A DNA stretch of 64,000 bases from Chitinophaga sp. MM2321. GTDB taxonomy: Bacteria > Bacteroidota > Bacteroidia > Chitinophagales > Chitinophagaceae. Numbering within the stretch: position 1 is the first letter of the stretch; each line of letters starts with the position of its first letter. The notes under the pieces were generated by a model. The model made no database searches, was not told where the DNA came from, and worked only from the letters and a program-made list of their open reading frames with translations. Below are positions 16,772-49,280 of this stretch, piece by piece. The DNA lies in contig NZ_OZ035533.1 of NCBI RefSeq assembly GCF_964033635.1, forward strand, positions 2,046,001 to 2,110,000, in the 5' to 3' direction. A program made the position numbers and the translations under genes.

Positions 16772-17680
16772 ATGCTTGCAATCAGGAATAATGAGCGATG
16801 TGTGCTTGGTACGGCCGGTCTTGGTGGTATATGGGGCAAAGTAGACCCGAAGGAATCTGTTGACACGATACTCACAGCCCTTGAAGCAGGAATTAATGCA
16901 ATTGATACTGCCCCTGCTTATGGTGATGCAGAAATGTATGTGGGGGAAGCTCTTCGTTTGTGGTCTGGTGAGCGCCCACAACTCAGTACCAAGGTAGGCA
17001 GGCTTAAATCCTACGCAGCTGATGAGGGACGGTACGACTATAGCCATTCCGGTATGCAGCGTAGTGTAGCGCAAAGCCTGGAAACATTGGGTGTACCGCA
17101 ATTGGATATTTTATTTCTGCACGACCCTGATGCCATTCATCCTGCTGAAGTCGAAATGGTAATTGAATCCTTACAAACATTTAAAGCAAAAGGCTATACC
17201 CGCAAAATAGGGGTAGGCGGTAACCCGCCGCTGTGGTTATTGCCCTACCTGAAATCGGGGGTATTTGATGTGTTGATGGAATTTAATAAACTCAACGCAT
17301 GCTCTGCTGTAGCATTGAAAGAGAATCTTCCGTTCTGTATCGATAATAAAATCACCTATTTCGCCGCAAGTCCTTTGAATATGGGCTTACTTGGCAGCAA
17401 TTATGAAAACTTTATAACCAATAACCCGGCATGGCTTAACATAAAATTTGTTGATGCAGCCATAAAGATGAAAAGCATTGCCGACAGGCATGAAATGGCG
17501 CTACATACACTTGCACACAGGTTTCTGCTGTCAATTCCACAGTTGTTTCATATTGTAATCGGAGCATCAAACCGGCAACAACTGAATGATACGCTTAATG
17601 ATTTTAATAACGGAACACTACCGCGCGACATTTTTTTGGAAATAATGAATAATCTCGATAAAACGGAATTACATGCATAA
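16772..17680 (+). CDS. Aldo/keto reductase, likely sugar 1-dehydrogenase
   Basis: Cytoplasmic NAD(P)-dependent TIM-barrel enzyme. The complete AKR tetrad is visible: Asp45 and Tyr50 in INAIDTAPAYG, Lys74 in STKVGR and His117 in LFLHDPD. The branch resembles D-threo-aldose/L-fucose dehydrogenases, which oxidise the anomeric carbon of a free sugar to the lactone. That fits the enolase-type dehydratase that follows and overlaps it by 8 bases. The length of 302 residues is typical. It is the first gene of the plus-strand cluster and lies just behind the palindromic control region. Substrate (L-fucose, L-galactose or similar) is inferred from context only. Confidence 0.88.
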   Translation: MLAIRNNERCVLGTAGLGGIWGKVDPKESVDTILTALEAGINAIDTAPAYGDAEMYVGEALRLWSGERPQLSTKVGRLKSYAADEGRYDYSHSGMQRSVAQSLETLGVPQLDILFLHDPDAIHPAEVEMVIESLQTFKAKGYTRKIGVGGNPPLWLLPYLKSGVFDVLMEFNKLNACSAVALKENLPFCIDNKITYFAASPLNMGLLGSNYENFITNNPAWLNIKFVDAAIKMKSIADRHEMALHTLAHRFLLSIPQLFHIVIGASNRQQLNDTLNDFNNGTLPRDIFLEIMNNLDKTELHA

Positions 17681-18845
17681 AATAGATGAGGAGATTTTCA
17701 ATATAACAAAAGCATATATCAGGATTTTGAAACCGGCAAAGGCTGTTACTCCATTTGAAGATGCAACTATGGGTCCTTTTCACAGTTTCGGAATTGCCAT
17801 GTTGAGTCTTGAAGATGAAAACGGGTTTACAGGAGAAGCACCGGTATTTCATTCTTATAATAATATTTTTGAAAACTGCTTGCTACCAATTTTGTTCCAT
17901 AACAATAACGCTTCTTATGAAACGATGTATTATCGCTTGTATTGGTCGATACGCAATGAAGGTTTCCGTGGGCAGGCGGCAGCTTTAATAGGACAAATAG
18001 ATATTGCCCTTCATGATTTGGCGGCAAAACGGAAAGGATTGCCGCTTCATCAATATCTGAATGCATCGAGGAACCTGGTAAGAGTTTATGGTAGTGGAGG
18101 AGGTACTAATTATTCGCTGAAAGAACTGGAAGCTGAAGTAGTTTTTTTTCTGAGTGCCGGGGTTGATTGTTATAAGATGAAAGTGGGAAAATATTTTGGA
18201 ACGAGGATGAAAGAAGACGTAGATCGTGTGAAATTTGTGAGAAACCTGTTGGGTAAGGATGTAAGACTTGCTGTTGATGCCAATCAGATCTGGAATTGCG
18301 AGCAGGCACGCAAATTTATAGATCTTACAGGTAATGAAAATTTAGCCTGGTTTGAGGAGCCCATACATTCTGCTTCACTCGATCAGATCGCACAACTGTG
18401 TAAAAGCACAACATCAAAAATAGCATATGGTGAATCGGAACGTTCTGCTTTGGTATTCCCTGCATTAGTGAATGCAGGGGTGCGTCATTTACAACCGGTA
18501 CCAACGCAAATAAATGGGGTAAACGAGTGGATGCAGGTTAGGGATCTTGCTGCTAAAGAGGGGATTGAATTTTCGTCAGGTGGTTATTCCTGGGTTACTG
18601 CACCGTTCATTGCTTCTGCAACTGAAGACTGCCAGGTTGAGTACTTATATTCATTGATGGCTGGATTGGAAAAGTATTTTTCTGTTTACCCCAAATTGAA
18701 AAACGGGATGTTTGAACTTTCTGATGTTGAAGGGTTATCCGTTCGGGTTGACTGGGATTATTGTCAGAAGAAAGAGCTGATCGCTGGTTTTCAAAGCTGG
18801 GAAAGTGATCAGGTGGCTCAATATCGTCCGATAGTAAATATGTAA
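17673..18845 (+). CDS. Enolase-superfamily (mandelate racemase/muconate lactonising type) enzyme
   Basis: Cytoplasmic Mg-dependent enzyme that abstracts a proton alpha to a carboxylate, probably as a sugar-acid dehydratase or epimerase. A capping domain (about 1-135) precedes the barrel. Seen are the base motif KMK (Lys168, Lys170) and three metal ligands: Asp202 (AVDANQIW), Glu228 (FEEP) and Glu254 (YGESE). The second half of the usual MR-type site is missing. Where a His-Asp dyad would be expected, the sequence reads LQPVPTQINGV and SSGGYSWVTA. It may therefore use one base only, or catalyse something unusual. It overlaps the aldo/keto reductase by 8 bases, so the two are translationally coupled. 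Confidence 0.85.
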   Translation: MHKIDEEIFNITKAYIRILKPAKAVTPFEDATMGPFHSFGIAMLSLEDENGFTGEAPVFHSYNNIFENCLLPILFHNNNASYETMYYRLYWSIRNEGFRGQAAALIGQIDIALHDLAAKRKGLPLHQYLNASRNLVRVYGSGGGTNYSLKELEAEVVFFLSAGVDCYKMKVGKYFGTRMKEDVDRVKFVRNLLGKDVRLAVDANQIWNCEQARKFIDLTGNENLAWFEEPIHSASLDQIAQLCKSTTSKIAYGESERSALVFPALVNAGVRHLQPVPTQINGVNEWMQVRDLAAKEGIEFSSGGYSWVTAPFIASATEDCQVEYLYSLMAGLEKYFSVYPKLKNGMFELSDVEGLSVRVDWDYCQKKELIAGFQSWESDQVAQYRPIVNM

Positions 18846-18863: not shown

Positions 18864-20417
18864 GTGAACGTAACGATTTCCTGGGTTGATTATCTTGTAT
18901 TACTTGTTTATACTGTTTTGCTTTTGGCTTTTGGTTTTTATATCAGCAAAAAGCAAAGCGGTGATATTTTTTTGGGAGGAAGGTCGCTTAAATGGTGGCA
19001 GATCGGTTTTTCACTTTTTAGCGCCAATGCGGGCCCTACGATGTTGATCGGTTTTGCGAGTATTGGTTTTTCGCAAGGTGTAGTAGGGAGCAATTTCGAA
19101 TGGCTTGCCTGGATATTCCTGATGTTGTTGGCTATGTTTTTTCTGCCGCATTACATGGCAACCAGGGTAACTACGGTGCCACAATTCCTGTTGCTGCGTT
19201 TTGGAAAACGGTCGTATAATTTTCTTATCATTTACAGTTTATTGTCTATTTTGTTTGTATGGCTGGGTAGTGCTATGTATGCAGGGGGACTTATCATCTC
19301 ACAGATATTTGATTGGCCGTTGATGAAATCGGTTATCATTGTTGCTGTAATTGCGGCCAGCTTTACTTCAATAGGAGGATTGAAAGCAGTGGTACGTACC
19401 GGTATTTTTCAATCGCTCATCATTATCACCTCTTCCATTATTCTTACTTTTTTAGCATTGAAAAAAATCGGTGGAGTGCAGGCTTTTGTAAGTGCGGTGC
19501 CGGCTGATTACTGGAAACTGTTTCGCCCTGCTTCTGATCCGGAGTATTCATGGATCGCTATCCTGGCCGGTTATCCCGTTGTTGCCATTTATTATTGGTG
19601 TGCCGACCAAACCATTGTGCAGAAAGTATTGGCGGCAAAAGATCTGAAAGAAGGACAATATGGCGCCATGTTTATTGCGGTACTTAAAATAATCATGCCG
19701 CTGATTTTTATTTTTCCGGGCATTATGTGCTTTGTCTTGTTTAAAGAAACAGCGCAACCTGATAATGCATACATCACGCTTGTGACACAGCTGATGCCGC
19801 ATGGTCTGCTGGGTTTGTGTATTGCTGCGCTGATTGCTGCATTGATTGATACCGTGTCGTCCGGTCTGAATTCGTTCAGTACGGTTTTTACACTCGATGT
19901 AGTAGCACAATTTAAAGTGATGAATGAAAGCGACAAACGGAAAATGGGCAAATGGCTTACCTGGGTAGCTGCAACACTGGGGGGTTGTATTGCTTTCCTC
20001 TACTCACATTCAGGTAAGAATTTTTTTGAATTAAGCCAGGGTTTGGTATCGATACTGGCACCTCCTTTATCCGTTGTTTTTTTAGCTGGTATTATGTGGA
20101 AACGTGTTAACAGCATTGCAGCAGAAACAGTTTTATATGGCGGAGGCCTGATCTCCCTTCTGATTGGTTTGTGTCATGTGCTGGGTTATCCTTACAAAGG
20201 TTTCTGGCCACATTTTTTGATTTTGTCTGTTTATTTGTTTTTATCTTTTTCATTTGTAATCGTATTGGTAACATTGTTTACCAAGCCAAATGAGCGGCAG
20301 TCGCTTCCATCATTGGTGGAAACCAACAGGCAGGCAGGACATCAACCCAAAGCGGTTTGGATAAGATGGGCCTTGCTGGCTGCTGTAATGGGGGCTATCT
20401 ATTTTATATTCCGTTAA
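18864..20417 (+). CDS. Sodium:solute symporter (SSS family), probable sugar importer
   Basis: Inner-membrane Na+-coupled transporter of the SSS/SGLT family. The protein is hydrophobic throughout, with about 13-14 helices. It includes the early motif GGRSLKWWQIGFSLFSANAGP, shared with SGLT-type sugar transporters. ALIDTVSSGLNSFSTVFTLDV in the second half corresponds to the Na+-site helix. The start is GTG at 18864, which places the first helix (VDYLVLLVYTVLLLAFGFYI) at the expected position. Length is 517 residues. It lies 18 bases after the enolase-family gene. Together with the MFS porter three genes on, it gives the cluster two independent importers, perhaps for two related sugars. Confidence 0.9.
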   Translation: MNVTISWVDYLVLLVYTVLLLAFGFYISKKQSGDIFLGGRSLKWWQIGFSLFSANAGPTMLIGFASIGFSQGVVGSNFEWLAWIFLMLLAMFFLPHYMATRVTTVPQFLLLRFGKRSYNFLIIYSLLSILFVWLGSAMYAGGLIISQIFDWPLMKSVIIVAVIAASFTSIGGLKAVVRTGIFQSLIIITSSIILTFLALKKIGGVQAFVSAVPADYWKLFRPASDPEYSWIAILAGYPVVAIYYWCADQTIVQKVLAAKDLKEGQYGAMFIAVLKIIMPLIFIFPGIMCFVLFKETAQPDNAYITLVTQLMPHGLLGLCIAALIAALIDTVSSGLNSFSTVFTLDVVAQFKVMNESDKRKMGKWLTWVAATLGGCIAFLYSHSGKNFFELSQGLVSILAPPLSVVFLAGIMWKRVNSIAAETVLYGGGLISLLIGLCHVLGYPYKGFWPHFLILSVYLFLSFSFVIVLVTLFTKPNERQSLPSLVETNRQAGHQPKAVWIRWALLAAVMGAIYFIFR

Positions 20418-23591: not shown

Positions 23592-24038
23592 ATGAAAAAA
23601 ATAATTTTCTTCCTGCTTGCCGGTGCCACGCTGGCTGCAACCGCGTTGATAACTGGATGTACTCAAAAACAGGTTGAGGTGAAAAAAGTACAGGAGTTTG
23701 AGGACAGGGTTTTTGTTGTAAACATTGTACATGATTCATTGAAATTAAAAGCGTACCTCAATTATCACAAACAGGTATGGCCGCAGGTGGAAGCCGGATT
23801 TAAAAAAGCAGGGTACAGGAAAATTGTGCTCTACCGGTACGACTATTTATTGGTAATGAAGATTACAGTGCCTGTTGGTGCTGATTTAGGAGAAATGGGT
23901 AAACTGGCTGAAGCATCTGATCCACGTTGTGCAGCATGGAATAAATTAATGAATACTTATCAGCAAGGTGTACAGGGAACATTACCTGGACAAACATGGG
24001 TTGAAGCAAAACCGTTTTACCAGTTTAGCAGACCATAA
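23592..24038 (+). CDS. L-rhamnose/L-fucose mutarotase-like lipoprotein (RhaM/DUF718 family)
   Basis: Small dimeric alpha/beta-barrel protein that interconverts anomers of deoxy-sugars. The first 23 residues are a signal peptide with lipobox LITGC (Cys23 lipidated), so this copy should be anchored in an envelope membrane rather than being cytoplasmic like E. coli RhaM. The catalytic region LNYHKQVWPQVEAGFKKAGY contains His59, which corresponds to the family's YxxxH(xx)VWP signature. The C-terminal EASDPRCAAWNKLMNTYQQ is also typical. Length is 148 residues, about 105 without signal and linker. It points to a 6-deoxyhexose such as fucose or rhamnose as the substrate of the cluster. Confidence 0.87.
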   Translation: MKKIIFFLLAGATLAATALITGCTQKQVEVKKVQEFEDRVFVVNIVHDSLKLKAYLNYHKQVWPQVEAGFKKAGYRKIVLYRYDYLLVMKITVPVGADLGEMGKLAEASDPRCAAWNKLMNTYQQGVQGTLPGQTWVEAKPFYQFSRP

Positions 24039-24089: not shown

Positions 24090-26024
24090 ATGAAAATCGT
24101 TTTTCAAATTATAATGTTTTGGATGATTAGTGTGGGTGTTTGTGCGCAAAGTAACCTGGTCAATAAGAATAAACCTGTTCATAAAGAATATTATGTATCG
24201 GTAAGTGGTAATGATACAAACGATGGAAGTAAAACAAAACCCTTTAAAACCATTTCAGCAGCCGCCAATGTAGCTATGCCGGGCGATGTAATTACCGTTC
24301 ATGCAGGTGTGTACCGGGAGCAGATCGCACCTCCGCGTGGAGGTAATTCCGAAAATGAGCGGATCGTTTACCAGGCGGGCAAAGGAGAGAAAGTAGAGAT
24401 TAAAGGATCTGAAATTATAAAGGGTTGGGAAAAAACAGGTAATGATACCTGGGTAGTAAAAATTCCCAATAGCTTCTTTGGGAAATTTAATCCCTTTGAT
24501 GATTTGATCCGTGGGGATTGGTATTCAGGCGGCAAGTTTCATACGGGGGCTGTGTACCTGAATGGTGACTGGTTGATGGAATCATTAAAGAAGGATGACG
24601 TGATGCGTCCGGCCAATGAAAAAGATCCGCTATGGTGTGCTAGTGTAGATGCTGCTACCACTACGATTTGGGCGCAGTTTAAAAATACAGACCCCAACAA
24701 AGAAACCGTCGAGATTAATGTGCGTCAAAAGGTTTTTTATCCGGAGCAACCATTTACCAATTTCATAATGGTTAGGGGCTTTATTATGCAGCATGCTGCT
24801 ACCAACTGGGCGCCGCCTACCGCAGAGCAAATGGGATTGATTGGCACTAATTGGAGCAGGGGCTGGATTATTGAGAACAACATTGTTCAATATTCTAAAT
24901 GTGTCGGTATATCATTGGGTAAGTATGGTGATGAATACAACAACAAAAATACCGAATCGGCAGAAGGCTATGTAGGCACTATCAACAGGGCATTGAAGTT
25001 TGGATGGAATAAGGGAACTATTGGCGGTCATTTGGTACGCAACAACAGCATTGCATATTGTGAACAAACTGGTATTGTGGGTAGCATGGGTTGTGCATTC
25101 AGCACTGTTGAAGGCAATATCATTCACGATATCCATATAAGAAGATTGTTTGGTGGAGCAGAAATGGCAGGCATTAAATTTCATGGCGCTGTGGATGTGG
25201 TTATCCGTAATAACCAAATCTATCGGACTGCTTTGGGTATCTGGTTGGATTGGATGGCGCAAGGCGTGCAGGTAAAGAATAATCTGATGTATGATAACCT
25301 GGATCGTGATCTCTTTTTAGAGGTGAATCATGGGCCTATGCTTGTGAGCAATAATATTTTTCTCTCTAAAAACAGTTTGCTGATGAATTCGAGCGGAGCT
25401 GCATTTGTACATAACATTTTTGCGGGAAATATGGAAGTTGTATCCTACGATGCTCGTCTGACACCTTACCACAAAGCTCATTCTACCTATGTAGCCGCAT
25501 TGCACGATAATCCCGGCGGTGATATTCAGTTCGTCAATAACTTATTTGTGAATGGCGCTAATGCAGGTCAGTATAAGAAAAGTATTTTACCAGTGGTGTT
25601 TCACGGAAATGTATATACGAAAGGAGCTATCAGAGCTGTGTCCGGTAATAAGCAAAGAAGTTTTGGTGAAATAAGCGCGGAAGCAAAAAAGAAAATTGCA
25701 AATGTGCAGGACAAGGATGCCATGGAAGATACTTTTATAGCGGATGAAAATTTTGATGCAGGTGCAAGGCTGGTAGCAGAAGGGGATAAAATGTACCTGG
25801 AAATTGCACTGGACAAAAAATGGCTGACTGCGCAAAAAAGGAACATGGTAACCACCGGATCTTTGAGCAATGCCATTATTCCCGATTTACCTTTTGAAAA
25901 TACGGATGGATCTCCGTTGAAGATCGATGTTGACTATTCAGGGAATAAACGCAGTGCGGGTAATCCATCGCCTGGCGCGGTTGAAATCATTAAGAATGGA
26001 AAACAACGGATCAGAGTATGGTAG
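24090..26024 (+). CDS. Secreted right-handed parallel beta-helix protein, putative glycosidase or lyase
   Basis: Signal peptide (about residues 1-20, ISVGVCAQS), then a DUF1565-type opening YYVSVSGNDTNDGSKTKPFK and a solenoid of short beta-strand repeats with many Asn turns (IIENNIVQYSKC, HLVRNNSIAYCEQTG, VVIRNNQIYR, VQVKNNLMYDN, MLVSNNIFLS). This is the pectate-lyase/rhamnogalacturonase-like fold. The layout resembles GH141, a family that includes an alpha-L-fucosidase, which would suit the mutarotase next door. Membership cannot be proved by eye. At 644 residues it is a single-domain enzyme acting outside the cytoplasm. Confidence 0.75.
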   Translation: MKIVFQIIMFWMISVGVCAQSNLVNKNKPVHKEYYVSVSGNDTNDGSKTKPFKTISAAANVAMPGDVITVHAGVYREQIAPPRGGNSENERIVYQAGKGEKVEIKGSEIIKGWEKTGNDTWVVKIPNSFFGKFNPFDDLIRGDWYSGGKFHTGAVYLNGDWLMESLKKDDVMRPANEKDPLWCASVDAATTTIWAQFKNTDPNKETVEINVRQKVFYPEQPFTNFIMVRGFIMQHAATNWAPPTAEQMGLIGTNWSRGWIIENNIVQYSKCVGISLGKYGDEYNNKNTESAEGYVGTINRALKFGWNKGTIGGHLVRNNSIAYCEQTGIVGSMGCAFSTVEGNIIHDIHIRRLFGGAEMAGIKFHGAVDVVIRNNQIYRTALGIWLDWMAQGVQVKNNLMYDNLDRDLFLEVNHGPMLVSNNIFLSKNSLLMNSSGAAFVHNIFAGNMEVVSYDARLTPYHKAHSTYVAALHDNPGGDIQFVNNLFVNGANAGQYKKSILPVVFHGNVYTKGAIRAVSGNKQRSFGEISAEAKKKIANVQDKDAMEDTFIADENFDAGARLVAEGDKMYLEIALDKKWLTAQKRNMVTTGSLSNAIIPDLPFENTDGSPLKIDVDYSGNKRSAGNPSPGAVEIIKNGKQRIRVW

Positions 26025-26064: not shown

Positions 26065-28713
26065 ATGCTGCAGAAGAATCTGTTTCCGGGAAGATTAAAA
26101 TTGTTTGTACTGGCAGTGTGTATGCTCTTGATGTGTGATGTGACTGCACAGAATAACACTGTTTCCAACAAGGTTACTGATGTTTGGATTGTTGTGAAAA
26201 GTCATTTTGATCTTGGCTTTACTGATCTGGCCGAAAATGTTTTCCAGCGATACCGCACCGAAATGATGGACAAGTCGCTTAAAGTTATGGAGGCCAACAG
26301 AGGGCTGTCTAAAGAAAACCAATTTGTATGGACAGTGCCGGGTTGGCCATTATATGCGCAAATGCTTGGTCCAAAACAGGATTCTCTCCGAAAAAAAAGA
26401 ATTGAACAGGCTGTGAGAGACGGAATGTTAACACCACATGCGCTGGCTTTTTCAACACATACCGAATCGCAGGACCTGGAAGATTTGGTACGCAGTCTTT
26501 CCTACAGCAGTAATGTTTGTAAAGAATATGGACGCCCGCTTCCTATTGCAGCGAAGATGACGGATGTTCCTTCGCACAGTTGGGTTCTTCCAACTTTATT
26601 ATATCACGCAGGAATAAAATTTTTACATATCGGTGTTAATCCGGCAAGTCAGTATCCTCGCGTACCGCAACTGTTTTGGTGGCAAGGGGCAGATGGCTCA
26701 AAGGTTTTGTGCGGTTATACCATTGATTATGGCAGCAGCTTTTTACCGCCTGCCGATTGGCCATGTAAAAATTATTTGTCCCTGATTATGGCCGGTGATA
26801 ATCATGGCCCGCCCTCAACTGAAGAAGTAGCCCGGTGGAGAACACAATACGAGGATAAAATGCCTGGCGTAAAAGTGCATTTCGGAACGCTTGATGATTT
26901 TGCAAAAGCAGTATTGGAAGAGAAGCCCGAATTGCCTGTAGTAAAAGGTGATATGCCCGATACATGGATTCATGGCCTTATGTCGATGCCACAGGCAACA
27001 AAAGCGGCGAGGAATACCCGTCCGCTCGAGCCTGCACTTGAAACATTCGATACGCATCTTCGGTATTGGGGGCTCCATCCAGACAGTTTGGAAAAACAAC
27101 TTGCAAAGGCTTATGAGCAAAGCTTGCTTTACAGCGAGCATACATGGGGTATGAACGCAGAATACGGGCCAAGACGTTTGTACGGCGACGCATGGAAGCA
27201 ATGGATGACTGAGATGGAAAATGAACCCCTACCCGCTGATGGTGATTATTCAAAATTGCCCCGTGGTAGTAAACGAAAGTGGCTTCAGTCTTATGATGAT
27301 CACCGGAATTATGCCAACACAGCTGCATCAATTGTAAACAAAGAATTAAATGATAGACTTTTGCTGCTGGCATCATCAGTTAAAACAAAGGGTAAAAGTA
27401 TTGTTGTTTACAATGCACTTCCGTGGAAGCGGTCAGGTGTTACTGAAGTTGATGGATTAAAAGTCTTTGTAAAAGATGTTCCCGCAAAGGGATATAAAAC
27501 AGTACCCTTCAGGGAAGAAGTAGCAGTTGAAGGAAATGAGACAAAAATAGAAACGAACTATTTTGTAGCCAGTTTCGATCTTGAAAAGGGCGGCATCCGT
27601 TCTTTAGTTGAAAAGGCTACCGGCAGGGAGTTGGCTGATCAAAGCAGCCCTTATATAATTGGACAGTTTTTGCATGAACGGTTTAGTACAAAGGAAGTGT
27701 TTGATCGTTTTTTTGATAAATATTCCCGTTTACATGAAGGGTGGGCGCTGAATGATATTGGCAAACCCGGTATGCCTGATGAAAGCAAAGTACCCTATAT
27801 GATTACAACCCCTGCAGGTTGGAAAATCAGGTCTACACAATCAGCTATAGAAGAAACTGTCACACTTACCGCTTCTGATTGTAGAGGATTGGCAAAGGGT
27901 TATACAATTAGTTTTTCATTTCCTAAACATATGCCATCTGTTGATGTATCATGGAAAGTTGATACGAAGACCGCAGACAAACATCCGGAAGGAGGTTGGC
28001 TTTGTTTTCCATTTAATATCCAAAAGCCTGTTTTTACACTAGGCCGGTTAGGCGCACCTGTTAACCCTGCTGTTGATATTATCCCGGGAACCAATCGTTA
28101 TTTGTATGCTGTTACAACAGGGGTGGCTATTTCGGGGAATGACGCAGGCGTTGCGCTTTGTCCCATTGATGCGCCGCTGGTTTCACTTGATAAACCGGGA
28201 TTGTGGCATTGGAGCATGGACTTTGTTCCGCAAAAGCCAACTGTTTTTGTGAATCTATATAACAATATGTGGAATACAAATTTTCCACTTTGGCAAGATG
28301 GCTCCTGGAGTGAAAGAATTCGCTTTTGGCCTGTTGCAAAAGATGTAAACGCCATAGATGACCTTGCAGTTCAGTCCTGGGAAGCGAGGTTGCCATTGCT
28401 GGCTGCAATTACTGATAATGCTTCAGGTACACTACCTGCAATACAGGAAGGATTAAGCGTTTCCCGTAAAGGTGTGCTGGTAACAGCATTCGGCGCTGAC
28501 CCCAACGGCAGTAAGGGTACCTTGTTACGTGTATGGGAGCAGACGGGTATCAGTTCTTCCGTAACAATCAAATTTCCTCATGGTATGAAAATTAAGTATG
28601 CTGTTCCGGTTAATCTGCGAAGTGAAATATCTGGAAAGAAGATATTGATTAAGAACAACAGCCTTACTGTGTCATTACAGCGATTCGAACCATTGAGTTT
28701 TATATTGGAATAG
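26065..28713 (+). CDS. Secreted GH38-like glycoside hydrolase
   Basis: A signal peptide (about residues 10-29) is followed by a GH38-type alpha/beta domain. Its zinc-site entry, TDVWIVVKSHFDLGFTDLA (His47, Asp49), replaces the usual HSHxDxGW motif of alpha-mannosidases. A probable nucleophile is Asp167 in AAKMTDVPSHSWVLP. Residues about 300-400 form the middle helical domain, and about 500-880 the large beta-sandwich (NYFVASFDLEKGGIRSLVEK). At 882 residues it has full GH38 architecture, but the altered motif and length suggest a divergent branch whose substrate may not be mannose. It lies 40 bases after the beta-helix gene. Confidence 0.82.
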   Translation: MLQKNLFPGRLKLFVLAVCMLLMCDVTAQNNTVSNKVTDVWIVVKSHFDLGFTDLAENVFQRYRTEMMDKSLKVMEANRGLSKENQFVWTVPGWPLYAQMLGPKQDSLRKKRIEQAVRDGMLTPHALAFSTHTESQDLEDLVRSLSYSSNVCKEYGRPLPIAAKMTDVPSHSWVLPTLLYHAGIKFLHIGVNPASQYPRVPQLFWWQGADGSKVLCGYTIDYGSSFLPPADWPCKNYLSLIMAGDNHGPPSTEEVARWRTQYEDKMPGVKVHFGTLDDFAKAVLEEKPELPVVKGDMPDTWIHGLMSMPQATKAARNTRPLEPALETFDTHLRYWGLHPDSLEKQLAKAYEQSLLYSEHTWGMNAEYGPRRLYGDAWKQWMTEMENEPLPADGDYSKLPRGSKRKWLQSYDDHRNYANTAASIVNKELNDRLLLLASSVKTKGKSIVVYNALPWKRSGVTEVDGLKVFVKDVPAKGYKTVPFREEVAVEGNETKIETNYFVASFDLEKGGIRSLVEKATGRELADQSSPYIIGQFLHERFSTKEVFDRFFDKYSRLHEGWALNDIGKPGMPDESKVPYMITTPAGWKIRSTQSAIEETVTLTASDCRGLAKGYTISFSFPKHMPSVDVSWKVDTKTADKHPEGGWLCFPFNIQKPVFTLGRLGAPVNPAVDIIPGTNRYLYAVTTGVAISGNDAGVALCPIDAPLVSLDKPGLWHWSMDFVPQKPTVFVNLYNNMWNTNFPLWQDGSWSERIRFWPVAKDVNAIDDLAVQSWEARLPLLAAITDNASGTLPAIQEGLSVSRKGVLVTAFGADPNGSKGTLLRVWEQTGISSSVTIKFPHGMKIKYAVPVNLRSEISGKKILIKNNSLTVSLQRFEPLSFILE

Positions 28714-28839: not shown

Positions 28840-30720
28840 ATGAATAAACTTATTTTATCACTCATCTCTTTAATGCTTTGTGTACAGTTGTCTGCGCAAT
28901 CTGTACAACCACTTACATCACCCGATGGAAAGCTTCAGTTTTTATTTGAGTTAAATGCCGGAGGTGCACCGGTATACAGTATAACATATCAGCAAAAAAC
29001 TGTTGTGCTTTCTTCTGCTTTAGGATTAAGTGGATGGGAAAAGGGATTTATCGTGGCCGATGTTGTTATATCAAAAAAAGATACGATATGGAAACCGGTA
29101 TACGGTGAACGCAGTTTAGTAAGAGATCATTACAATGAAATTACAGTTACACTATTACGGCGTAAAAATGGAAAACAGCAATTCCAGATCCAGGTAAGGG
29201 CCTACAATGAAGGTATCGCTTTTCGTTATTTGTTGCCTGAAGATACGAATGGGGGAACGGATATAAGCATTAAGGCGGAGTATACTGAATTTTCTATGCC
29301 TGAAGGAACAAAAGCATGGTTCGCAGCAAGTGCACAAAGCCATTATAGTTTGTTGCCCTTAAAAGGCTGGCCGGGTGAAAGTGAGCGACCACTAACGCTG
29401 GAAATGCCCAATGGCCTGTATGTTAGCTTGGCAGAAGCTGAAATGGTGAATTACTCACGCACAAAATTTGCCCTTCATCCTACTAAAGAAAATACTATTT
29501 GTACAGCAATAAATGGGAGTGTAGATTTTTTTACGCCTTTTGCTACACCATGGCGGGTGGTAATGGTAGCACAACGCCCAATTGATCTATTGGCAAATAA
29601 TGATCTTCTTTTAAACCTTAATCCACCGTGCGCAATTGAAAATACTTCCTGGATAAAACCGGGTAAAATTATGCGTGAAGTATCCCTTACGATGAAAGGT
29701 GCAAAGGAGCTGATTGATTTTGCCGTAAAACGTAAACTTCAATACATTCACTTCGATGCCGGCTGGTATGGCTATGAATATGTGGTGGCCTCCGATGCAA
29801 CCCGTGTGAATGTTGACCCCCGACGTAATGCTAACAGTGACCTCAACCTGCAGGAAGTAATAAAGTATGCCAATGAAAAAGGCATCGGCGTGTTTTTATA
29901 TGTAAATCAAAGAGCATTATATAAGCAACTGGACGAGTTGCTTCCGCTATATCAAAAGTGGGGCGTAAAAGGTATTAAGTTTGGCTTTGTGGAAGTAGGA
30001 TCGTATAAATGGACAACATGGCTGCATGATGCCGTGAAGAAATGTGCGAAGTATAACCTCATGGTTGATATTCATGATGAATATCGTCCTACGGGTTTTA
30101 GCAGAACCTATCCCAACCTGCTGACACAGGAAGGAATACGTGGTAATGAAGAAATGCCCGAGGCAACAAACAGCACTATTCAGCCTTTTACACGCTGCAT
30201 TGCAGGAGCCGCAGATCATACCATTTGCTATTATCATCGTCCTGAACTAAAGAAGCAATTGGCAGGAATACAGCATGCCAGGGTTATGAAAACTACGTCG
30301 GGCCATCAGTTAGCACTTGCAGTAGTACTTTATAGTCCTTTACAATTTTTGTATTGGTACGATACACCGGAAGATTCGCAAGATGAACCTGAGTTGGAGT
30401 TTTTTGATAACGTATCTACGGTATGGGACGATACAAAAGTGGTGGATGGTGAAATTGGAAAACACATTACCATTGCTCGTCGTAAAGATGATGACTGGTT
30501 TGTAGGCACCGTTACCAATACGGAAAAAAGAGAGCTGAAGGTTCCCTTAACATTTCTGACGCCGGGAAAAAAATACCGGGCAAGTATTTATTATGATGAT
30601 CCTGCTTCTAAAGTAAGAACAAAGGTTTCTATCAAAAGGATGAATGTAACGTCAGCGTCTGTATTGGATGCCAAGCTGATTCCCTCAGGTGGACAGGCTG
30701 TCTGGATAAAACAGTTATGA
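28840..30720 (+). CDS. Secreted GH97 alpha-glucosidase/alpha-galactosidase-type enzyme
   Basis: SusB-related exo-glycosidase of 626 residues with a signal peptide (about 1-20, CVQLSAQS). The N-terminal beta-supersandwich (about 22-275) leads into a TIM barrel with QYIHFDAGWYGYEY, GIKFGFVEVG (about 378-387), VDIHDEYRPTGFSRTYPN (about 409-426) and EGIRGNEEMPEA (about 431-442). The C-terminal sandwich follows. From memory of the family, retaining members have Asp at the end of the fourth barrel strand while inverting SusB has Gly; this protein reads KFGF there, favouring the inverting type. The equivalent of a SusB Glu appears as Asp in IHDE, so the assignment is tentative. It ends 32 bases from the convergent AraC gene. 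Confidence 0.9.
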   Translation: MNKLILSLISLMLCVQLSAQSVQPLTSPDGKLQFLFELNAGGAPVYSITYQQKTVVLSSALGLSGWEKGFIVADVVISKKDTIWKPVYGERSLVRDHYNEITVTLLRRKNGKQQFQIQVRAYNEGIAFRYLLPEDTNGGTDISIKAEYTEFSMPEGTKAWFAASAQSHYSLLPLKGWPGESERPLTLEMPNGLYVSLAEAEMVNYSRTKFALHPTKENTICTAINGSVDFFTPFATPWRVVMVAQRPIDLLANNDLLLNLNPPCAIENTSWIKPGKIMREVSLTMKGAKELIDFAVKRKLQYIHFDAGWYGYEYVVASDATRVNVDPRRNANSDLNLQEVIKYANEKGIGVFLYVNQRALYKQLDELLPLYQKWGVKGIKFGFVEVGSYKWTTWLHDAVKKCAKYNLMVDIHDEYRPTGFSRTYPNLLTQEGIRGNEEMPEATNSTIQPFTRCIAGAADHTICYYHRPELKKQLAGIQHARVMKTTSGHQLALAVVLYSPLQFLYWYDTPEDSQDEPELEFFDNVSTVWDDTKVVDGEIGKHITIARRKDDDWFVGTVTNTEKRELKVPLTFLTPGKKYRASIYYDDPASKVRTKVSIKRMNVTSASVLDAKLIPSGGQAVWIKQL

Positions 30721-30752: not shown

Positions 30753-31649
30753 CTATTTTGTTTGAGAAGTTTTGGCTGAAGATTTGGTATCTGCCTCGTA
30801 TTGTTTCATAAAATCTCTCGGCGATAATCCTTTTATTCGTTTAAAATGTTTGTTGAAGTTGGAGATATTATTGTACCCACTTTCATAACAGGCTTCTGTA
30901 ACATTATGAACTCCTTCCAGCAATAGTTTAGCGGCGTGCCCGATACGGACTTCTTTTACAAAATCAGTTAAGGTCCTGTTTGTTTTTTGTTTGAAGAAGC
31001 GACAAAAAGCAGCCGTTGACATAGGGATAATACCTGCTACGTCGTGCAATCCAATATCCTCTTTAAAGTTTCGGAATATATAATCAAATACTTTATTTAT
31101 TTTTTGCGCCTCACTTGATGTTACGATGGTATTATAATATGGAGATGACAAAATTCTGGCTGTTGTTGATTGGGTAAGAATGTCAAGCAGTCGTAACATC
31201 AACGCTGCCCGGCCAAGCCCTTTTTCAAACAACATTTGCTGCATCACCATTTTTGCCCGCTGAATTGTTTGTCCTGAAAATAATACCCCTTTCGCTGCTT
31301 TTTCAAAGAGTTTATTTAACTCTTTAGCCTCCGGCTTTTCGAGTAGCTCTTTTCCCAAAAAATCGGGAAAGAAATGAATAACGATAGCCTGTGGCTGTAT
31401 CATCTGATCAATAGCTTGGTAATATTGCCAGCAATGTGGCAGGTAGCCGCCCAGTAATACTAATTCAGGTCCCTCAAAATCTTCAATATGGTCACCAATA
31501 AAGCGTTTGCCCGTACAGTTTTCCAGTAAAGCAATTTCAAAGTTTACATGACTTTTGAGCGTAGTGTATTTTTTGAGCTCCAACATGTCGGAGCGAACAG
31601 TAAAAGACTGATCGGGTGGAAATGTAAAATTCTCATATAAATACTGCAT
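30753..31649 (-). CDS. AraC-family transcriptional regulator (cluster-linked)
   Basis: Single-component regulator of 298 residues. A cupin-like N-terminal ligand-binding region (about 1-170) is followed by the double HTH of AraC proteins (about 195-285): DIGLHDVAGIIPMSTAAFCRFF and VTEACYESGYNNISNFNKHF, ending KGLSPRDFMKQY. It is convergent with the sugar cluster and divergent from the unassigned genes at 32.1 kb, and could control either. Palindromic sites exist 15 kb away at the head of the cluster, but AraC proteins usually bind direct repeats, so a link is not established. Confidence 0.92.
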   Translation of the reverse strand: MQYLYENFTFPPDQSFTVRSDMLELKKYTTLKSHVNFEIALLENCTGKRFIGDHIEDFEGPELVLLGGYLPHCWQYYQAIDQMIQPQAIVIHFFPDFLGKELLEKPEAKELNKLFEKAAKGVLFSGQTIQRAKMVMQQMLFEKGLGRAALMLRLLDILTQSTTARILSSPYYNTIVTSSEAQKINKVFDYIFRNFKEDIGLHDVAGIIPMSTAAFCRFFKQKTNRTLTDFVKEVRIGHAAKLLLEGVHNVTEACYESGYNNISNFNKHFKRIKGLSPRDFMKQYEADTKSSAKTSQTK

Positions 31650-32131
31650 GCCTGTTTAAAATATGTACTTGAAAGAATGGAATTCCAATTTAAACGAAAT
31701 TTTTTAAATATATCCATTTACTATTCCCGGGGGAAACCGTGTTCCAAAGGTGCAGATAGCAAAAAAAAATCAATAACAATCAAATTAGTGGTGGTTTAAA
31801 AACGCATATTAAGTGAATTTCACCCATGAAATACCTTAATCTATACTAAATGATTAATTTCTAATACTAATTGATCCAAAAGAGAATGCGGCTTTACTTG
31901 GTGTTACTGTTTTCCGCGTGGGAGGCAAGGGAAGGGAAGGGAAGGGAAGGGAAGGGAAGTACCGTTGCTAGCGACCAGGGACAATTTGAAATAACCGTAC
32001 CTGCCGGGAGCAGTTATAATAATTTCTCGTAAGTTGTAAAGAGACGGCTTTTAGCCTCCTCTTTATCTTCGTCTTGCACAAAAGAAGTAAGATACTTCTA
32101 TGCCAGTATCGGAGACAAATCAGCATTTGAT
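31650..32131. other. 482-base intergenic region with a simple repeat
   Basis: No gene recognised. It holds the AAGGG repeat at 31927-31959, a 15-base palindrome GAAGTAAGATACTTC (32084-32098) and AT-rich stretches. It should contain the divergent promoters of the AraC gene and the 32,132 gene. No full TAnnTTTG/TTG promoter pair was recognised. Confidence 0.6.
31927..31959. repeat. Pentanucleotide tandem repeat (AAGGG), about 6.6 units
   Basis: 33 bases of uninterrupted AAGGG repeats, between the AraC gene and the unassigned secreted protein. In a promoter region, changes in copy number by slipped-strand copying could alter spacing and expression. Read on the other strand it is a CCCTT tract. 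Confidence 0.9.
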
Positions 32132-34444
32132 ATGAAAAACATGAATATACAGTACAACTACCCCGGTAACTTTAAAAGAATTGTCTTTTTAGTCCTGTTG
32201 GTAACATACCTGTTTTCTGGCCAGGGTTATGCCCAGGTAAATCTGTCCACCGATTATTTCAGGATACACATCAATGAGAAAGGTTTTATTACCAGTATGA
32301 AGAATATCAGAAAGACACCTGTCCGGGAGTTTAGTCCAACTGATAAGCCATCACCATTGCTGTGTTTGTACAACGGTAATGAAAAAAAGTATTACGAGCC
32401 GCAGAAAGCCACTTATTCAAAAGGTACCGGCATACTTTCATTAAACTACGCGAACGGTTCTGTAGCCCGGGTTAAAATTGAAACCAACACAAAATATTTT
32501 AAGTTGACATTGAAATCACTTACCAACCGGCAAGGAATTGAAGATGTCCAATGGGGATTTTATTATACCAATATTACCAATCTTTTGGGAGAAATTATAG
32601 GCGTAGCCCGGGATACCAGTGAAGCCGTTAACTATGCTATTGGCATGCTGGCGCTTAACGACAATACTTTGGGTGGTACTTCCGAAACTATTGCGGATGC
32701 AGCTCCTTTTCAATATATTATCCATAGCCCCGATTCCCAACGCTACCCCTTACCCGAAAATTTGCATGAAGGACAGGTGTTTACACTGGGAGGCGATGGC
32801 GTCAGCGATGTGGCTTTTTACGCACATAAAGAGCCTTACTACCGCATTATGTATGGCAATGCTGCGCAGGTAGACAAAAAAGGAAGGATTTCCATCGCCT
32901 ATCATTCGAGAGACCGGTCTATAAAAAGGGAAGTTTATTTTTCCTTAATCCCCAATATGGCTGCCAACACGCCAAACCATATTGAAGTGCAGCCGTTGCC
33001 CGGTGTTGATTATATTGGCTCATCTATAGCTTTATGGGGGAGTCCCGACAGTATTGCTTTGATGCATGTAATCAGGAATATCGTTCGCTCCGAGGGGTTG
33101 CCTTACCCCACAATTGGTGGGAAATGGGTAAAAGATCCGGCTGCTTTTGTTCCTGATGCCATTACCAGCGGAGGTTTGTACGATAGTATAATCCCCTATA
33201 CCACCAGGTTAGGTTTTAAAACGATCAGTTTGTACGATCAGGGGTTTTTAAGGCCGGATCGTGGAAATGAAGGATACCTTGACGGGAAAAATTTTGAAAA
33301 AAAGCCCTTGAACCTAACAGCAGGAAATAAATCTCATAAAGAGTTTTCTGAAATGGCTGCAAAACAGGGGATTACAATAGGAAGAACCCCGATAACCAAT
33401 TCCCTGGCTCCCGGAACGATGGATGCCAGCCCTTATCCGAGCGACAGCCTGTGCTATCAGCAAAAACGGGTATTGGTAAAAAGTCTTGGTCCAACAGATA
33501 CGATCATCCTGGTGGATGACCCCAACCACCTGGAAGAGATTGCGAGTTGGGAAGGACATTGTGCAGATTTGAATATGATAAAGATCGGGAAAGAACTTAT
33601 TCACTATCTGGGTGTATCAGAGAAAGCACCTTACCGGCTTTTAAATGTAAAACGAGGCTACTGGAAAACCACCCCTGCGGCTCACAACGCCGGGGATGCC
33701 ATTTATAAGCTCCAGGTAACCATTAACTACGGATACGATGGATTGATTCCCAATATGCAATTGCAGGATAAAATTGCCGAGTACTATGCCGATGTTTGTC
33801 ACATAAACGGTTTAGGCTATTATGACTTCGACGGACAGGAGTTTTTGTTCAATAACGGGCATGGCTACTATTCGACGAAACGTTTTTTCCATCACATGTT
33901 TCAAAGAGCTGCAAAACTGGGTGTTCCGTATATCCGTTTTACCGGGGCTACGCTGTCAGAAGGTTCATGGCATTATCAAAGTATCTGGAATGTGGGCGGG
34001 GGTAAAAACTTATACGATGTTGACACCAGGGAATGGGGGAGTACTACCAGCCAGGGTAAGGATCTCCGGGATGTAACTTATGCCAACTTCTTCCCTGTGG
34101 GTATGGGAGGGAATTTCCCTATCAAGGCCAGTTCAACGGTAGAACAATACGAGCATATACAATCTGTTTCTGTAGGTGTTGGCACAACATACAGCCTGCA
34201 ACTAAACCAGAAAGACGTTGAAAGTTGCCCTCAGAAGGATGCTATTTTCGAAGTGATCAGAACATGGGAAAATGCAAGGGCTGCCAATGCGTTCTCCAGG
34301 AGCTTAAAGAAAGAACTGGCTGATCCGGCAAAAAGCTGGCGGTTGCAACAGGTAGACAATAATAACTGGAAACTATACCCGATGCTGAACGGCGAAAAAG
34401 GCGCCGCTATTGTTTTGACGAGAGATATAACAGGTGGATATTGA
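32132..34444 (+). CDS. Unassigned secreted protein, probable TIM-barrel glycoside hydrolase
   Basis: Not recognised as a known family. It has 770 residues with a signal peptide (about 14-35, IVFLVLLVTYLFSGQGYAQ). Residues about 36-320 are beta-rich (FRIHINEKGFITSMKNI), like the N-terminal sandwich of many glycosidases. About 330-680 looks like a TIM barrel, with alternating strands such as LGFKTISLYDQGF, QGITIGRTPITNS, INGLGYYDFDGQEFLF and GVPYIRFTGATLSEGSW. The acidic cluster YYDFDGQE (about residues 563-570) is a likely catalytic site. It lies only 3 bases before the next gene, so the two probably act together on one substrate outside the cytoplasm. The start at 32132 could also be Met4. 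Confidence 0.72.
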   Translation: MKNMNIQYNYPGNFKRIVFLVLLVTYLFSGQGYAQVNLSTDYFRIHINEKGFITSMKNIRKTPVREFSPTDKPSPLLCLYNGNEKKYYEPQKATYSKGTGILSLNYANGSVARVKIETNTKYFKLTLKSLTNRQGIEDVQWGFYYTNITNLLGEIIGVARDTSEAVNYAIGMLALNDNTLGGTSETIADAAPFQYIIHSPDSQRYPLPENLHEGQVFTLGGDGVSDVAFYAHKEPYYRIMYGNAAQVDKKGRISIAYHSRDRSIKREVYFSLIPNMAANTPNHIEVQPLPGVDYIGSSIALWGSPDSIALMHVIRNIVRSEGLPYPTIGGKWVKDPAAFVPDAITSGGLYDSIIPYTTRLGFKTISLYDQGFLRPDRGNEGYLDGKNFEKKPLNLTAGNKSHKEFSEMAAKQGITIGRTPITNSLAPGTMDASPYPSDSLCYQQKRVLVKSLGPTDTIILVDDPNHLEEIASWEGHCADLNMIKIGKELIHYLGVSEKAPYRLLNVKRGYWKTTPAAHNAGDAIYKLQVTINYGYDGLIPNMQLQDKIAEYYADVCHINGLGYYDFDGQEFLFNNGHGYYSTKRFFHHMFQRAAKLGVPYIRFTGATLSEGSWHYQSIWNVGGGKNLYDVDTREWGSTTSQGKDLRDVTYANFFPVGMGGNFPIKASSTVEQYEHIQSVSVGVGTTYSLQLNQKDVESCPQKDAIFEVIRTWENARAANAFSRSLKKELADPAKSWRLQQVDNNNWKLYPMLNGEKGAAIVLTRDITGGY

Positions 34445-34447
34445 CGA

Positions 34448-36820
34448 TTGAATATACGTTGTCACTTTACTAAAGTAAAAAATTACCGATTAGATATGAT
34501 ACGTGTGTCTAGAGCTTCGTTGCTTGTTTTGTCCTGTAGTTTTATGTCGCAGGTTATATATGCGCAGTCTTTTAATGAGGTTAATAACGTATTAAAAGCC
34601 ATTAGTGGAAGTATTCAGTTAGGAGTAAGTAAATATGAAGGCTACAACCCCGTAGAGAAAATGACTGTTGTTCAGAATTCTCAACAGTTCACATTTGATA
34701 ACTGGCGTATGCAATTACATGCTAAACCGGTACTTAATCACCCGGAGGCGCTGGATATAACTGCCAGTTTTAAGTTAACAGAAGGCGTTTCACTTTCTAC
34801 CGCCCTATCTGTTTCGTTTGGTTTTAGTAAGTGGAGCCAGGACAATTATGTAATGGTGCCTGCTATTGTCTATAATGGCAACCGTTATCACAGCATTGGA
34901 AACAGCTACAGCCCTCCTTATACAAAGGATATGTATTACAATCCCAAAGTACCGCTTACCATTTCCAACAATCCACGCCTGGCAATTGAATATGGAAAGG
35001 CATCGCTAGTTGAATTGCAAACAGGTAACGCTGCTACTCCTGCTATGTGTTTCTTTTCACCAGCTACAAAAAAGGGTTTTATAGTACTTACAGATCAGCA
35101 GTCGGAATGGGGTAATCATGGAATGACAATCGCAGAAAATGCCGCGCAGGACAGTTGCAGCTTTTCACTATCGGTACCAGCTATGCGGAAACTGGCCGCC
35201 GGGTTTGGTGACTTTCACCAGAGCGGCGATAAGGCAGTCAACTGGAAAGCAGGAGATGAAGTGAAGTTGCAATGCAGGATCTATGTATTTGATGCAAAAA
35301 ATATTCCTGACCTGCTTACGAAATTTATACATGTTCGGAAAGCCTTTATTGGACCCAACGAGCCACGTAACCAGCTACCGATGAGCAAGGAGTTAGAAAT
35401 GGCCACCACTATTTGCAGCAATAATTTTGTAACCGTTCCGGTAGGAAGCTATTACACACCCGAAAACAATAAAGATTTTCAACTGGGCTGGGTAAGTGGT
35501 ATGATGAACAGTTATCCGATGCTGGCGCTTAATAACGAAAAAGAGCGCAATCGTGTAGCAGCTGAACTTGATTTTGTGGTAAGTAAATTACAAGGGAAGA
35601 GTGGCTATTTTTATGGAGGCATTACAGCGAATGGTGAATTGCGCCCTGAAAAAATGCATCCCGATTTTCCTGAACCGCAGGCAATGGTGCGTAAAAACAG
35701 TGACGCCCTGCTTTGGTTAATGAAGCACTTGTTGCTCTTTAAAGCGCAGGGATATGGCAGTATGATAAAACCGGAATGGGAAAATGCTGCTCAAAAACTG
35801 GCAACAGCATTTGCAAATACCTGGAGAAAGTATGGTGAATTCGGACAGTATATTGCACCCGAAACAGGTGAAATAGCCGTATTCAATTCAACAGCCGGAG
35901 CGATTGCACCTGCGGGGCTGGCCATTGCTGCCGGATATTTTAAACAACCACAATGGTTGCAGATAGCAAAAGAATCCGCTAACTATTATTACACAAGAGA
36001 TGTAGTAAAACAAGGACTCACTGGTGGTCATTGTGGTGATATTTCAATGGATGCAGATGCTGAATCGGCTTTTGGGTTTTTGGAATCATTAATGGCATTA
36101 TACTATTATACAAGCGATAAAACCTGGTTGCAAAAGGCCGAAGTACAGGCTGCGCTTTGCGCTACATGGACAATTTCCTATGATCCCGTTTTCCCATCTA
36201 ATAGTCAGATTGGAAAACTACAATCAAAAATGGCGGGTGCTGTTTGGGCAAGTATTCAAAACAAACATGCGGCGCCGGGCATCTGTACAGCATCTGGTGA
36301 TTATTTGTTTAAACTCTATCGTGCTACCGGTAATCAATTGTATGCCGATTTGATCAGAGATATTCAACATGCACATGCAGAAGCGGTAAACATACCGCCG
36401 CATCATATAACAACCAATAATCTTGTCGGTTCAAGTATGGAGCGCATACAACCCAGCGATGCAGAAGGAAGAGAAAGTATCGGCAACTACATCAATACCC
36501 GCAACTCATGGACAGAAACCAATGGTATGCTCATGGGACTGGAATTGCCGGGTATATATATACAAACCGACAAGAATAAACTGTATGTGTTTGACCATGT
36601 AGCAGCAAAAATTGTTAAGCAGGAGGCTAATGGTACCACGCTGTTGCTGAAAAATCCTACACAGTTTGATGCAAATGTGGCCGTTTTTGCTGAAACCAGT
36701 CAGCAGGCATTAAAGGCGCTTGACTACACCGCTTTTGTAAACTGGCCTAAAGTAAAACTAAAAACGGGAGAAACAAGGCAGGTTTATATTACTGCGGCGG
36801 GGAAAGTAAAACTGCTGTAA
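34448..36820 (+). CDS. Unassigned secreted protein, probable (alpha/alpha)-barrel carbohydrate-active enzyme
   Basis: No family recognised. The open frame starts at 34448, but Met17 at 34496 (MIRVSRASLLVLSCSFMSQV) gives a cleaner signal peptide ending VIYAQ. Residues about 40-300 are beta-rich. About 320-700 consist of long helices with the periodic pattern of an (alpha/alpha)6 toroid (FANTWRKYGEFGQYIAPETG, SAGAIAPAGLAIAAGYF-like stretch, DADAESAFGFLESLMALYYY), as in several hydrolase and lyase families. A short beta domain ends it (ANGTTLLLKNPTQFDANVAV). Its gap to the preceding gene is 3 bases (51 with the later start), so they form an operon pair. Function is unknown. Confidence 0.72.
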   Translation: MNIRCHFTKVKNYRLDMIRVSRASLLVLSCSFMSQVIYAQSFNEVNNVLKAISGSIQLGVSKYEGYNPVEKMTVVQNSQQFTFDNWRMQLHAKPVLNHPEALDITASFKLTEGVSLSTALSVSFGFSKWSQDNYVMVPAIVYNGNRYHSIGNSYSPPYTKDMYYNPKVPLTISNNPRLAIEYGKASLVELQTGNAATPAMCFFSPATKKGFIVLTDQQSEWGNHGMTIAENAAQDSCSFSLSVPAMRKLAAGFGDFHQSGDKAVNWKAGDEVKLQCRIYVFDAKNIPDLLTKFIHVRKAFIGPNEPRNQLPMSKELEMATTICSNNFVTVPVGSYYTPENNKDFQLGWVSGMMNSYPMLALNNEKERNRVAAELDFVVSKLQGKSGYFYGGITANGELRPEKMHPDFPEPQAMVRKNSDALLWLMKHLLLFKAQGYGSMIKPEWENAAQKLATAFANTWRKYGEFGQYIAPETGEIAVFNSTAGAIAPAGLAIAAGYFKQPQWLQIAKESANYYYTRDVVKQGLTGGHCGDISMDADAESAFGFLESLMALYYYTSDKTWLQKAEVQAALCATWTISYDPVFPSNSQIGKLQSKMAGAVWASIQNKHAAPGICTASGDYLFKLYRATGNQLYADLIRDIQHAHAEAVNIPPHHITTNNLVGSSMERIQPSDAEGRESIGNYINTRNSWTETNGMLMGLELPGIYIQTDKNKLYVFDHVAAKIVKQEANGTTLLLKNPTQFDANVAVFAETSQQALKALDYTAFVNWPKVKLKTGETRQVYITAAGKVKLL

Positions 36821-40693: not shown

Positions 40694-40814
40694 AATATTT
40701 TTTTTCTGTTGCTCCCTATTTTCTCCAGCTTACGTCTTTATAGTAGTATGAATGAGTTGCCGGATGCTGATACCGCATACAGGTATCATCATGGCACCAT
40801 ATAAAATATTGACT

Positions 40815-42011: not shown

Positions 42012-42070
42012 AGGTCAACCAGAAAAGAACACGTTAAAAAAGAAGAAACAATTTATTTAGTCAGCTAAAC

Positions 42071-42102
42071 AAAAACCGGGAAGTGTTTGCGGCACCCCCC
42101 GG
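42071..42102 (-). terminator. Intrinsic terminator pointing against susC of PUL 2
   Basis: Minus strand: CCGGG (42102-42098) pairs with CCCGG (42080-42076), with an inner CAC/GTG pair and a 7-base loop, then TTTTTGTTT. In the susC direction it has an A-run before it and no T-run after it. Confidence 0.55.
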
Positions 42103-42170: not shown

Positions 42171-42182
42171 CAGCACAAAGTT

Positions 42183-45569: not shown

Positions 45570-45587
45570 ATTTTAAAAAAGATTATC

Positions 45588-47060: not shown

Positions 47061-47066
47061 CAAAAC

Positions 47067-49253: not shown

Positions 49254-49280
49254 ACGGGAATAATTTAAAAAAAAACGGCC

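Follow-up and report, generated by a model that had tools for sequence, protein, structure and literature searches.

Two neighbouring genes of Chitinophaga sp. MM2321, here called P1 and P2, most likely encode carbohydrate-active enzymes (CAZymes) outside the named families of the libraries searched (Pfam, NCBIfam and PDB). They lie in a stretch of 64,000 nucleotides, hereafter the window, which covers positions 2046001-2110000 of the 6.78-Mb, single-contig genome. The best overall explanation, held with moderate confidence, is that both are exported, cleave glycans and form part of a polysaccharide-utilisation system. Each probably represents an unassigned enzyme family built on a known fold, and the locus itself is of a known type. 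All positions below refer to the window.

32132..34444, forward strand: P1, an intact open reading frame (ORF) of 770 aa; N-terminal beta-sandwich and (beta/alpha)8 barrel with a beta-domain insert; candidate alpha-glycosidase
34496..36820, forward strand: P2, an intact ORF of 774 aa from ATG; beta-sandwich, (alpha/alpha)6 barrel and C-terminal beta domain

An earlier reading of this DNA (the original prediction) described two large secreted proteins lying 3 bases apart. Two long intact ORFs were indeed found, and both N-termini read as signal peptides by eye, with one N-terminal helix at residues 13-28 in the P1 model; export of both proteins is predicted from these features. The 3-base gap holds only with an alternative TTG start of P2 at 34448, which would give 790 aa (34448-36820). 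The in-frame ATG at 34496 opens directly on the signal-like sequence, as in most P2 homologues. Therefore, the start of P2 was taken as 34496 and the gap as 51 bases.

Family searches agreed with the original prediction that neither protein can be placed in a named family. No Pfam or NCBIfam model matched P1 or P2 above its cut-off, and phmmer with each single sequence found no PDB sequence at E<=10. Profiles of 55 P1 rows and 18 P2 rows matched 8 and 1 PDB chains, respectively, at E 0.74 or worse, and these were taken as chance. The absence of a named family refers to Pfam, NCBIfam and PDB. Among the 55 P1 members, Pfam gave scattered weak matches only, the commonest being two insert-type domains, Rcc01698_C (6/55) and GtfA_EBD (5/55). 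No Pfam match to the glycoside hydrolase (GH) families GH97, GH101 or GH129 was seen in P1 or any of these members; for GH129 this holds only as far as Pfam covers the family.

The AlphaFold model of P1 (predicted local distance difference test, pLDDT, 82; predicted template-modelling score, pTM, 0.83) and its fold matches agree with the beta-sandwich and TIM barrel that had been proposed, a fold shared with GH36. The lowest Foldseek E-value, 3.4e-10, belonged to GH31 (e.g., sulfoquinovosidase 5oht). The acidic site had been seen in YYDFDGQE, and the two Asp of DFDG had been singled out. This motif occupies residues 563-570, and the model places a strand at 561-565 and a helix at 578-595. Over 127 family rows, D567 is invariant (127/127) and E570 is Glu in 125 and Asp in the other two; the remaining Asp of DFDG, D565, is kept in only 108/127. 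W332, E488, R508, W613 and W635 are also invariant, and H614 and E674 are found in 124/127 and 120/127 rows. In GH31 and GH36, the nucleophile sits at barrel strand 4. P1 may belong to the GH31/36/97/101/129 fold class and work as a retaining exo-alpha-glycosidase whose nucleophile is D567.

33830..33841, forward strand: P1 codons D567-G-Q-E570, proposed catalytic site where a barrel strand ends (counted as strand 4)
33449..33715, forward strand: P1 insert, residues about 440-528, resembling the beta domain of phage-tail-like proteins

The insert was recognised through a tail-like ORF in locus L143 (its tail nature judged by eye), which matches P1 profile positions 442-521 only (E 1.6e-4); the weak Rcc01698_C matches point the same way. 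A tail-type domain within a sugar enzyme is unusual.

For P2, the AlphaFold model (pLDDT 80, pTM 0.86) and the fold matches likewise support the beta-sandwich and (alpha/alpha)-barrel first proposed. Across 32 P2 rows (Streptomyces rows left out), the invariant residues include D403, E523, H591, C597, E649, R650 and D655, and R231 and R399 are further invariant positions. The polysaccharide lyase (PL) family PL27 has a beta-sandwich followed by an (alpha/alpha)6 barrel and carries out an L-rhamnose-alpha-1,4-D-glucuronate lyase reaction, as described in PMC8377490. A rival explanation, which appears quite improbable, is that P2 is a PL27-like lyase taking an L-rhamnosyl-type cap off a uronic acid, with the rhaM, aldo/keto reductase (AKR) and enolase genes of the operon catabolising the freed L-rhamnose. 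Structures 5no8 and 5nok of PL27 BACCELL_00875 are Foldseek ranks 1 and 2 and share the domain order of P2 (VIA range 30-687), 5no8 being the only one of 50 VIA rows whose range starts at the start of the sandwich. The operon contains a rhaM-family gene, and four invariant His/Arg residues (H591, R231, R399, R650) are present in P2. However, the root-mean-square deviation is 6.2 at about 10% identity, and 5no8 is absent from the P2 profile matches at E<=10. Foldseek also gives alignments of 820-924 columns between P2 and other enzymes with a sandwich and an (alpha/alpha)6 barrel, such as glucodextranase 1ug9, GH116 5ost and cellobiose phosphorylase 8hob. Moreover, the GH120 and GH95 neighbours indicate hydrolysis of other sugars, and membership of the rhaM family does not fix the sugar. 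P2 would more likely be a hydrolase than a lyase, exo-acting and belonging to the (alpha/alpha)6 superfamily (GH127/GH88/GH76/PL27-like), with D403, E523, H591 and E649 as candidate residues.

P1 and P2 occur together more often than by chance. A related-locus search confirmed a P1 relative in 138 stretches, of which 80 were kept (12 of them with short flanks; individual loci are given L numbers). P2 is present in 17 of the 80 P1 loci, whereas 20 control stretches of 20 kb, spaced evenly over the window's own genome, contain neither gene (0/20). In 13 loci, the two genes are direct neighbours on one strand, separated by less than 300 bp (10-89 bases). L085 has a gap of 398 with a late start call, and L061, L089 and L107 have gaps of 5.3-8.4 kb. 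The order of the window, P1-P2, is found in three adjacent pairs (L031, L083, L087) and P2-P1 in the other ten. In a tree built from 32 P2 rows, 31 of them different, the P2-P1 order characterises a nine-row clade with Niabella, Proteiniphilum and Sphingobacterium, and it appears again in L050, inside a clade otherwise P1-P2 or without adjacent P1. Since this order appears in separate parts of the tree, the pair arose or changed its arrangement on more than one occasion, and this speaks for a functional link.

By record titles, the 80 P1 loci belong to Bacteroidota (Chitinophaga, Pedobacter, Sphingobacterium, Dyadobacter, Arenibacter, Algoriphagus and others). Among 59 related genomes, 15 carry a P1 relative, all of them from the window's genus, as do at least 15 of 395 phylum genomes, two of these by short weak matches. 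P2 was found in 14 of the 59 (two weak) and in at least seven of the 395, only three of them full-length. Because the alignment searches across the phylum scored no more than two candidates in each genome, the counts of 15/395 and 7/395 may miss some. The ORFs at two of the weak P2 places (L158, L159) look thioredoxin-domain-like by eye. Outside the phylum, the PLSDB database gave two Embleya plasmids with P1 (about 22% identity over 93-94%) and two Streptomyces plasmids with P2 (55.5% identity over 96%).

On both Streptomyces plasmids, no P1 relative is labelled within 12 kb of P2. On one of them (L326), P2 is preceded by genes for a sugar-type ABC transporter, an MR_MLE enzyme, an aldehyde dehydrogenase (ALDH), an SMP-30/gluconolactonase, a GH120 protein and a short-chain dehydrogenase/reductase (SDR). 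Thus, an aldose-oxidising set adjoins P2 both in Bacteroidota and on one actinomycete plasmid. The GC content at third codon positions (GC3) of this P2 is 0.72, against 0.79-0.91 in the eight preceding ORFs, as expected of an import. Judging by identity and low GC3, P2 on L325 and L326 (NZ_CP109328.1, NZ_CP108854.1) is likely to reflect cross-phylum transfer. The best NCBIfam match of the L326 ALDH is 2,5-dioxovalerate dehydrogenase, at 68 bits against a cut-off of 750. In the L326 GH120 protein (L326:7557-10391), a C-terminal stretch matches a fungal fucose-specific lectin family (26.0 bits, cut-off 25.3).

The sugar cluster and AraC regulator that the original prediction placed beside the pair were both recovered:

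30753..31649, reverse strand: AraC-type regulator, PF12833 above cut-off; divergent from P1; recurs in homologous loci
16772..17680, forward strand: AKR; nearest solved relatives L-galactose dehydrogenases
17673..18845, forward strand: enolase-superfamily (MR_MLE) acid-sugar dehydratase or cycloisomerase
18864..20417, forward strand: sodium:solute symporter (SSF)
23592..24038, forward strand: rhaM-family (L-rhamnose mutarotase) protein, PF05336 above cut-off
24090..26024, forward strand: GH120-type beta-helix protein, PF21258 above cut-off
26065..28713, forward strand: GH38-like/DUF5054 protein, PF01074 and PF16477 above cut-off
28840..30720, forward strand: GH97 protein, three GH97 domains above cut-off

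The order of genes across this part of the window is AKR, MR_MLE, SSF, an AP_endonuc_2-like gene (below cut-off), a major facilitator superfamily gene, PhyH, rhaM, GH120, GH38-like, GH97, the AraC gene in reverse, P1 and P2. Relatives share, in whole or in part, a core of AKR-MR_MLE-SSF-rhaM, a reverse AraC gene and SusC-SusD-P1-P2. SusD lies within 6 kb upstream of P1 on the same strand in 28 of 67 full-flank loci. When the 17 P1 loci with P2 were compared with the 63 P1-only loci, enrichment was found for GH120 (7/17 vs 4/63, p 0.0012), SSF (9/17 vs 8/63, p 0.001), rhaM (8/17 vs 7/63, p 0.0023), MR_MLE (7/17 vs 7/63, p 0.008), GH95 (5/17 vs 3/63, p 0.009) and AKR (7/17 vs 8/63, p 0.014). The recurrent partners of P1 and P2, besides one another, are GH120 and an aldose-oxidation operon (AKR/SDR dehydrogenase, enolase-type dehydratase, transporter, mutarotase/lactonase), often beside SusC/SusD.

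According to the proposed mechanism, the neighbouring AraC regulator probably controls both genes. P1 and P2 would each take a different unit off the same glycan, in either order, and one released aldose would enter non-phosphorylating oxidation through its aldonate. As for the identity of this sugar, an L-sugar, for example L-fucose or L-galactose, would match the AKR relatives and the GH95/GH29 genes, and rhaM points to L-rhamnose. A pentose would fit GH120, GH43 and the Streptomyces ALDH equally well. The MR_MLE enolase is nearest to 3,6-anhydro-L-galactonate cycloisomerase and L-talarate/galactarate dehydratase.

Several findings weigh against the view of P1 and P2 as exported glycan-cleaving enzymes of one system. 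Their activity and substrate are predictions from sequence, models and linkage. For P1, the ten best fold matches have TM-scores of 0.25-0.41, and amylase-type barrels, GH38 sandwiches and one pyruvate kinase are also among the 49 matches at E<=0.001; because of these low scores and mixed families, P1 can be placed at superfamily level only. Beyond E570 and E674, no general acid/base is kept family-wide. Membership of GH31 was not supported, with no PF01055 match in P1 or any of its 55 members and a profile comparison of 0.3%. In GH31, the catalytic Asp sits in W-x-D-x-x-E at strand 4; D567/E570 of P1 keep the D-x-x-E spacing of WNDMNE, which is found in 29 of 30 GH31 homologues of the genus, but the motif letters are DFDGQE. 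GH36 was likewise not supported (no PF02065 match in P1 or the 55 members; profile comparison 2.0%). The GH36 nucleophile motif is K-W/Y-D, with KWD in 14 of 14 GH36 homologues of the genus, whereas P1 has YDFD. The alpha-galactosaminidase FpGalNase (PDB 9ayu, 8x1b, 9awt), a GH36 enzyme and one of the nearest known counterparts, shares 9-10% identity with P1 and differs from it in the Pfam Melibiase match and KWD, both lacking in P1, and in the beta-domain insert. A GH18-like assignment from D-x-D-x-x-E was ruled out on spacing and fold.

P2 seems to be remotely akin to GH127-type barrel families, as judged from its sequence. Among 18 P2 members, weak Pfam matches were obtained to GH127 (12/18, best E 2.1e-5), GH88 (9/18) and GH76 (4/18). 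With hhalign, the P2 barrel and the following beta domain gave 96.7% against the whole GH127 set, 95.4% against rows with the zinc motif and 70.6% against strong hits only; against GH88 the values were 1.3% and 21.9% in the two directions. GH88 itself gave 38-89% against the same GH127 sets, and the score may stem from nothing more than the helical repeat pattern. P2 of the window differs from GH127 in having no PF07944 match at E<=10 (cut-off 24.9 bits; other members match weakly), no CC pair where the alignment places that of GH127, and an additional N-terminal beta-sandwich. ETC and CCxxN are the zinc-site motifs of GH127; among the 30 GH127-hit proteins, which are a mixed set, 11 have the first and 9 the second. 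This kinship qualifies the proposal of undescribed CAZymes, which otherwise holds in that both proteins are most likely carbohydrate-active and outside the named families searched. It also favours the rather unlikely alternative that one or both are ordinary members of a recent CAZy family missing from Pfam and NCBIfam, since a family that postdates the Pfam copy would go unseen. Against this stand the lack of PDB relatives for the single sequences and the chance-like profile matches described above. Furthermore, in the literature on the operon, surface glycan-binding protein domains, Chitinophaga polysaccharide-utilisation loci (PULs) and novel glycoside hydrolases, no paper among those listed describes P1 or P2 in its title or the opening part of its abstract.

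At the level of the loci, the gene order of the window is the minority one (3/13), and seven of the ten reversed pairs are from Sphingobacterium. P2 is missing from 63 of the 80 P1 loci (a total that includes 12 with short flanks), and P2 stands without a P1 relative in seven of 15 listed 20-kb loci (L176-L178, L180, L181, L183, L184). P1 and P2 are therefore partners rather than an obligate pair, and the side-by-side conservation proposed as a check was found in a minority of loci, in both orders. In 11 same-genus loci with a close P2 (57-66%), a P1-family gene lies within 20 kb in seven, and it is always the paralogue P1b (39-43%). The occurrences of P1 without P2 and of P2 without P1, together with the Streptomyces plasmids and a genome dense in PUL genes, would suit an alternative in which P1 and P2 act on different glycans and are neighbours merely through frequent shuffling of PUL genes. 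This alternative is nonetheless unlikely given the adjacency in 13 loci of Chitinophagaceae, Sphingobacteriaceae and a Dysgonomonadaceae metagenome-assembled genome, in both orders, and the controls without either gene. Action on one glycan is the preferred reading, with further reservations. The second Streptomyces plasmid (L325) shows P2 and no labelled partner genes. The p values of the enrichment test are optimistic, the sequences being related, and no clear enrichment in P2 loci was seen for GH38 (3/17 vs 3/63, p 0.11) or for a third unnamed family, c9 (4/17 vs 9/63, p 0.46). In the window, no SusC/SusD lies between AraC and P1, the next pairs being at 7.4-12.4 kb (reverse strand) and 42-47 kb (forward strand). 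SusD is near P1 in 40 of 68 loci against 9 of 20 controls, and SusC in 42 of 68 against 12 of 20. Because the genome has 132 SusD matches and the controls are also rich, the presence of SusC/SusD near P1 is weak evidence.

A broader joint reading can be put forward tentatively. P1 and P2 would found two new CAZy families, P1 as a new branch of GH31/36-type alpha-glycosidases with a phage-tail-like insert and P2 as a new beta-sandwich (alpha/alpha)6 family. Together with GH120 they would form a glycan-to-aldonate pathway, in which the glycan is stripped and one sugar oxidised rather than phosphorylated, and P2, GH120 and the oxidation genes would have crossed to a Streptomyces plasmid. If so, two sequence families without a characterised member in the libraries searched would become assignable CAZymes, and the occurrence of P1 in many Bacteroidota genera means that an assay of one member would annotate many genomes. 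The link to the aldose-oxidation operon would narrow the released sugar to an aldose burned via its aldonate, bringing its identity within reach of a test. Where P1 is the sole glycosidase-like gene in a SusC/SusD operon, a growth phenotype alone could reveal the substrate. For instance, in Chitinophaga loci L162-L164, P1 ends a SusC-SusD-DUF4959-DUF4998 operon as the only such gene. In L163, the only one of the three with its flanks scanned, the next five genes encode a 2-oxoglutarate-Fe(II) oxygenase, a PMT_2 protein, two sigma-like proteins and an SDR.

Family c9 comprises proteins of about 930-1000 aa (L034:586-3378) and lies near P1 or P2 in 13 of 80 loci; it shows a weak GH36-type signal only (Pfam E 0.0089; hhalign 12-21%). 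Between AraC and P1, an AGGGA microsatellite of 7.4 copies occupies 31923-31959, and a 17-residue stretch at 31961-32011 resembles the N-terminal part of SusC (25 bits). As a SusC scar, this stretch was not significant, 9 of 300 shuffles scoring as high. A decayed SusC is possible at this place, where many relatives have SusC-SusD.

Downstream, a second forward-strand cluster at 40106-54405 holds a sigma factor, a FecR-like protein (both by eye), SusC, SusD and a pyrroloquinoline quinone (PQQ) dehydrogenase with cytochrome, as well as polysaccharide deacetylase, nucleoside-hydrolase-like, GH2 and AP_endonuc_2 proteins. It seems uncommon for a PUL to include a PQQ dehydrogenase. Upstream, a GH29 alpha-L-fucosidase lies at 2853-5033, and a SusC/SusD cluster with a sigma factor, FecR and GH43 occupies the reverse strand at 7387-16188.
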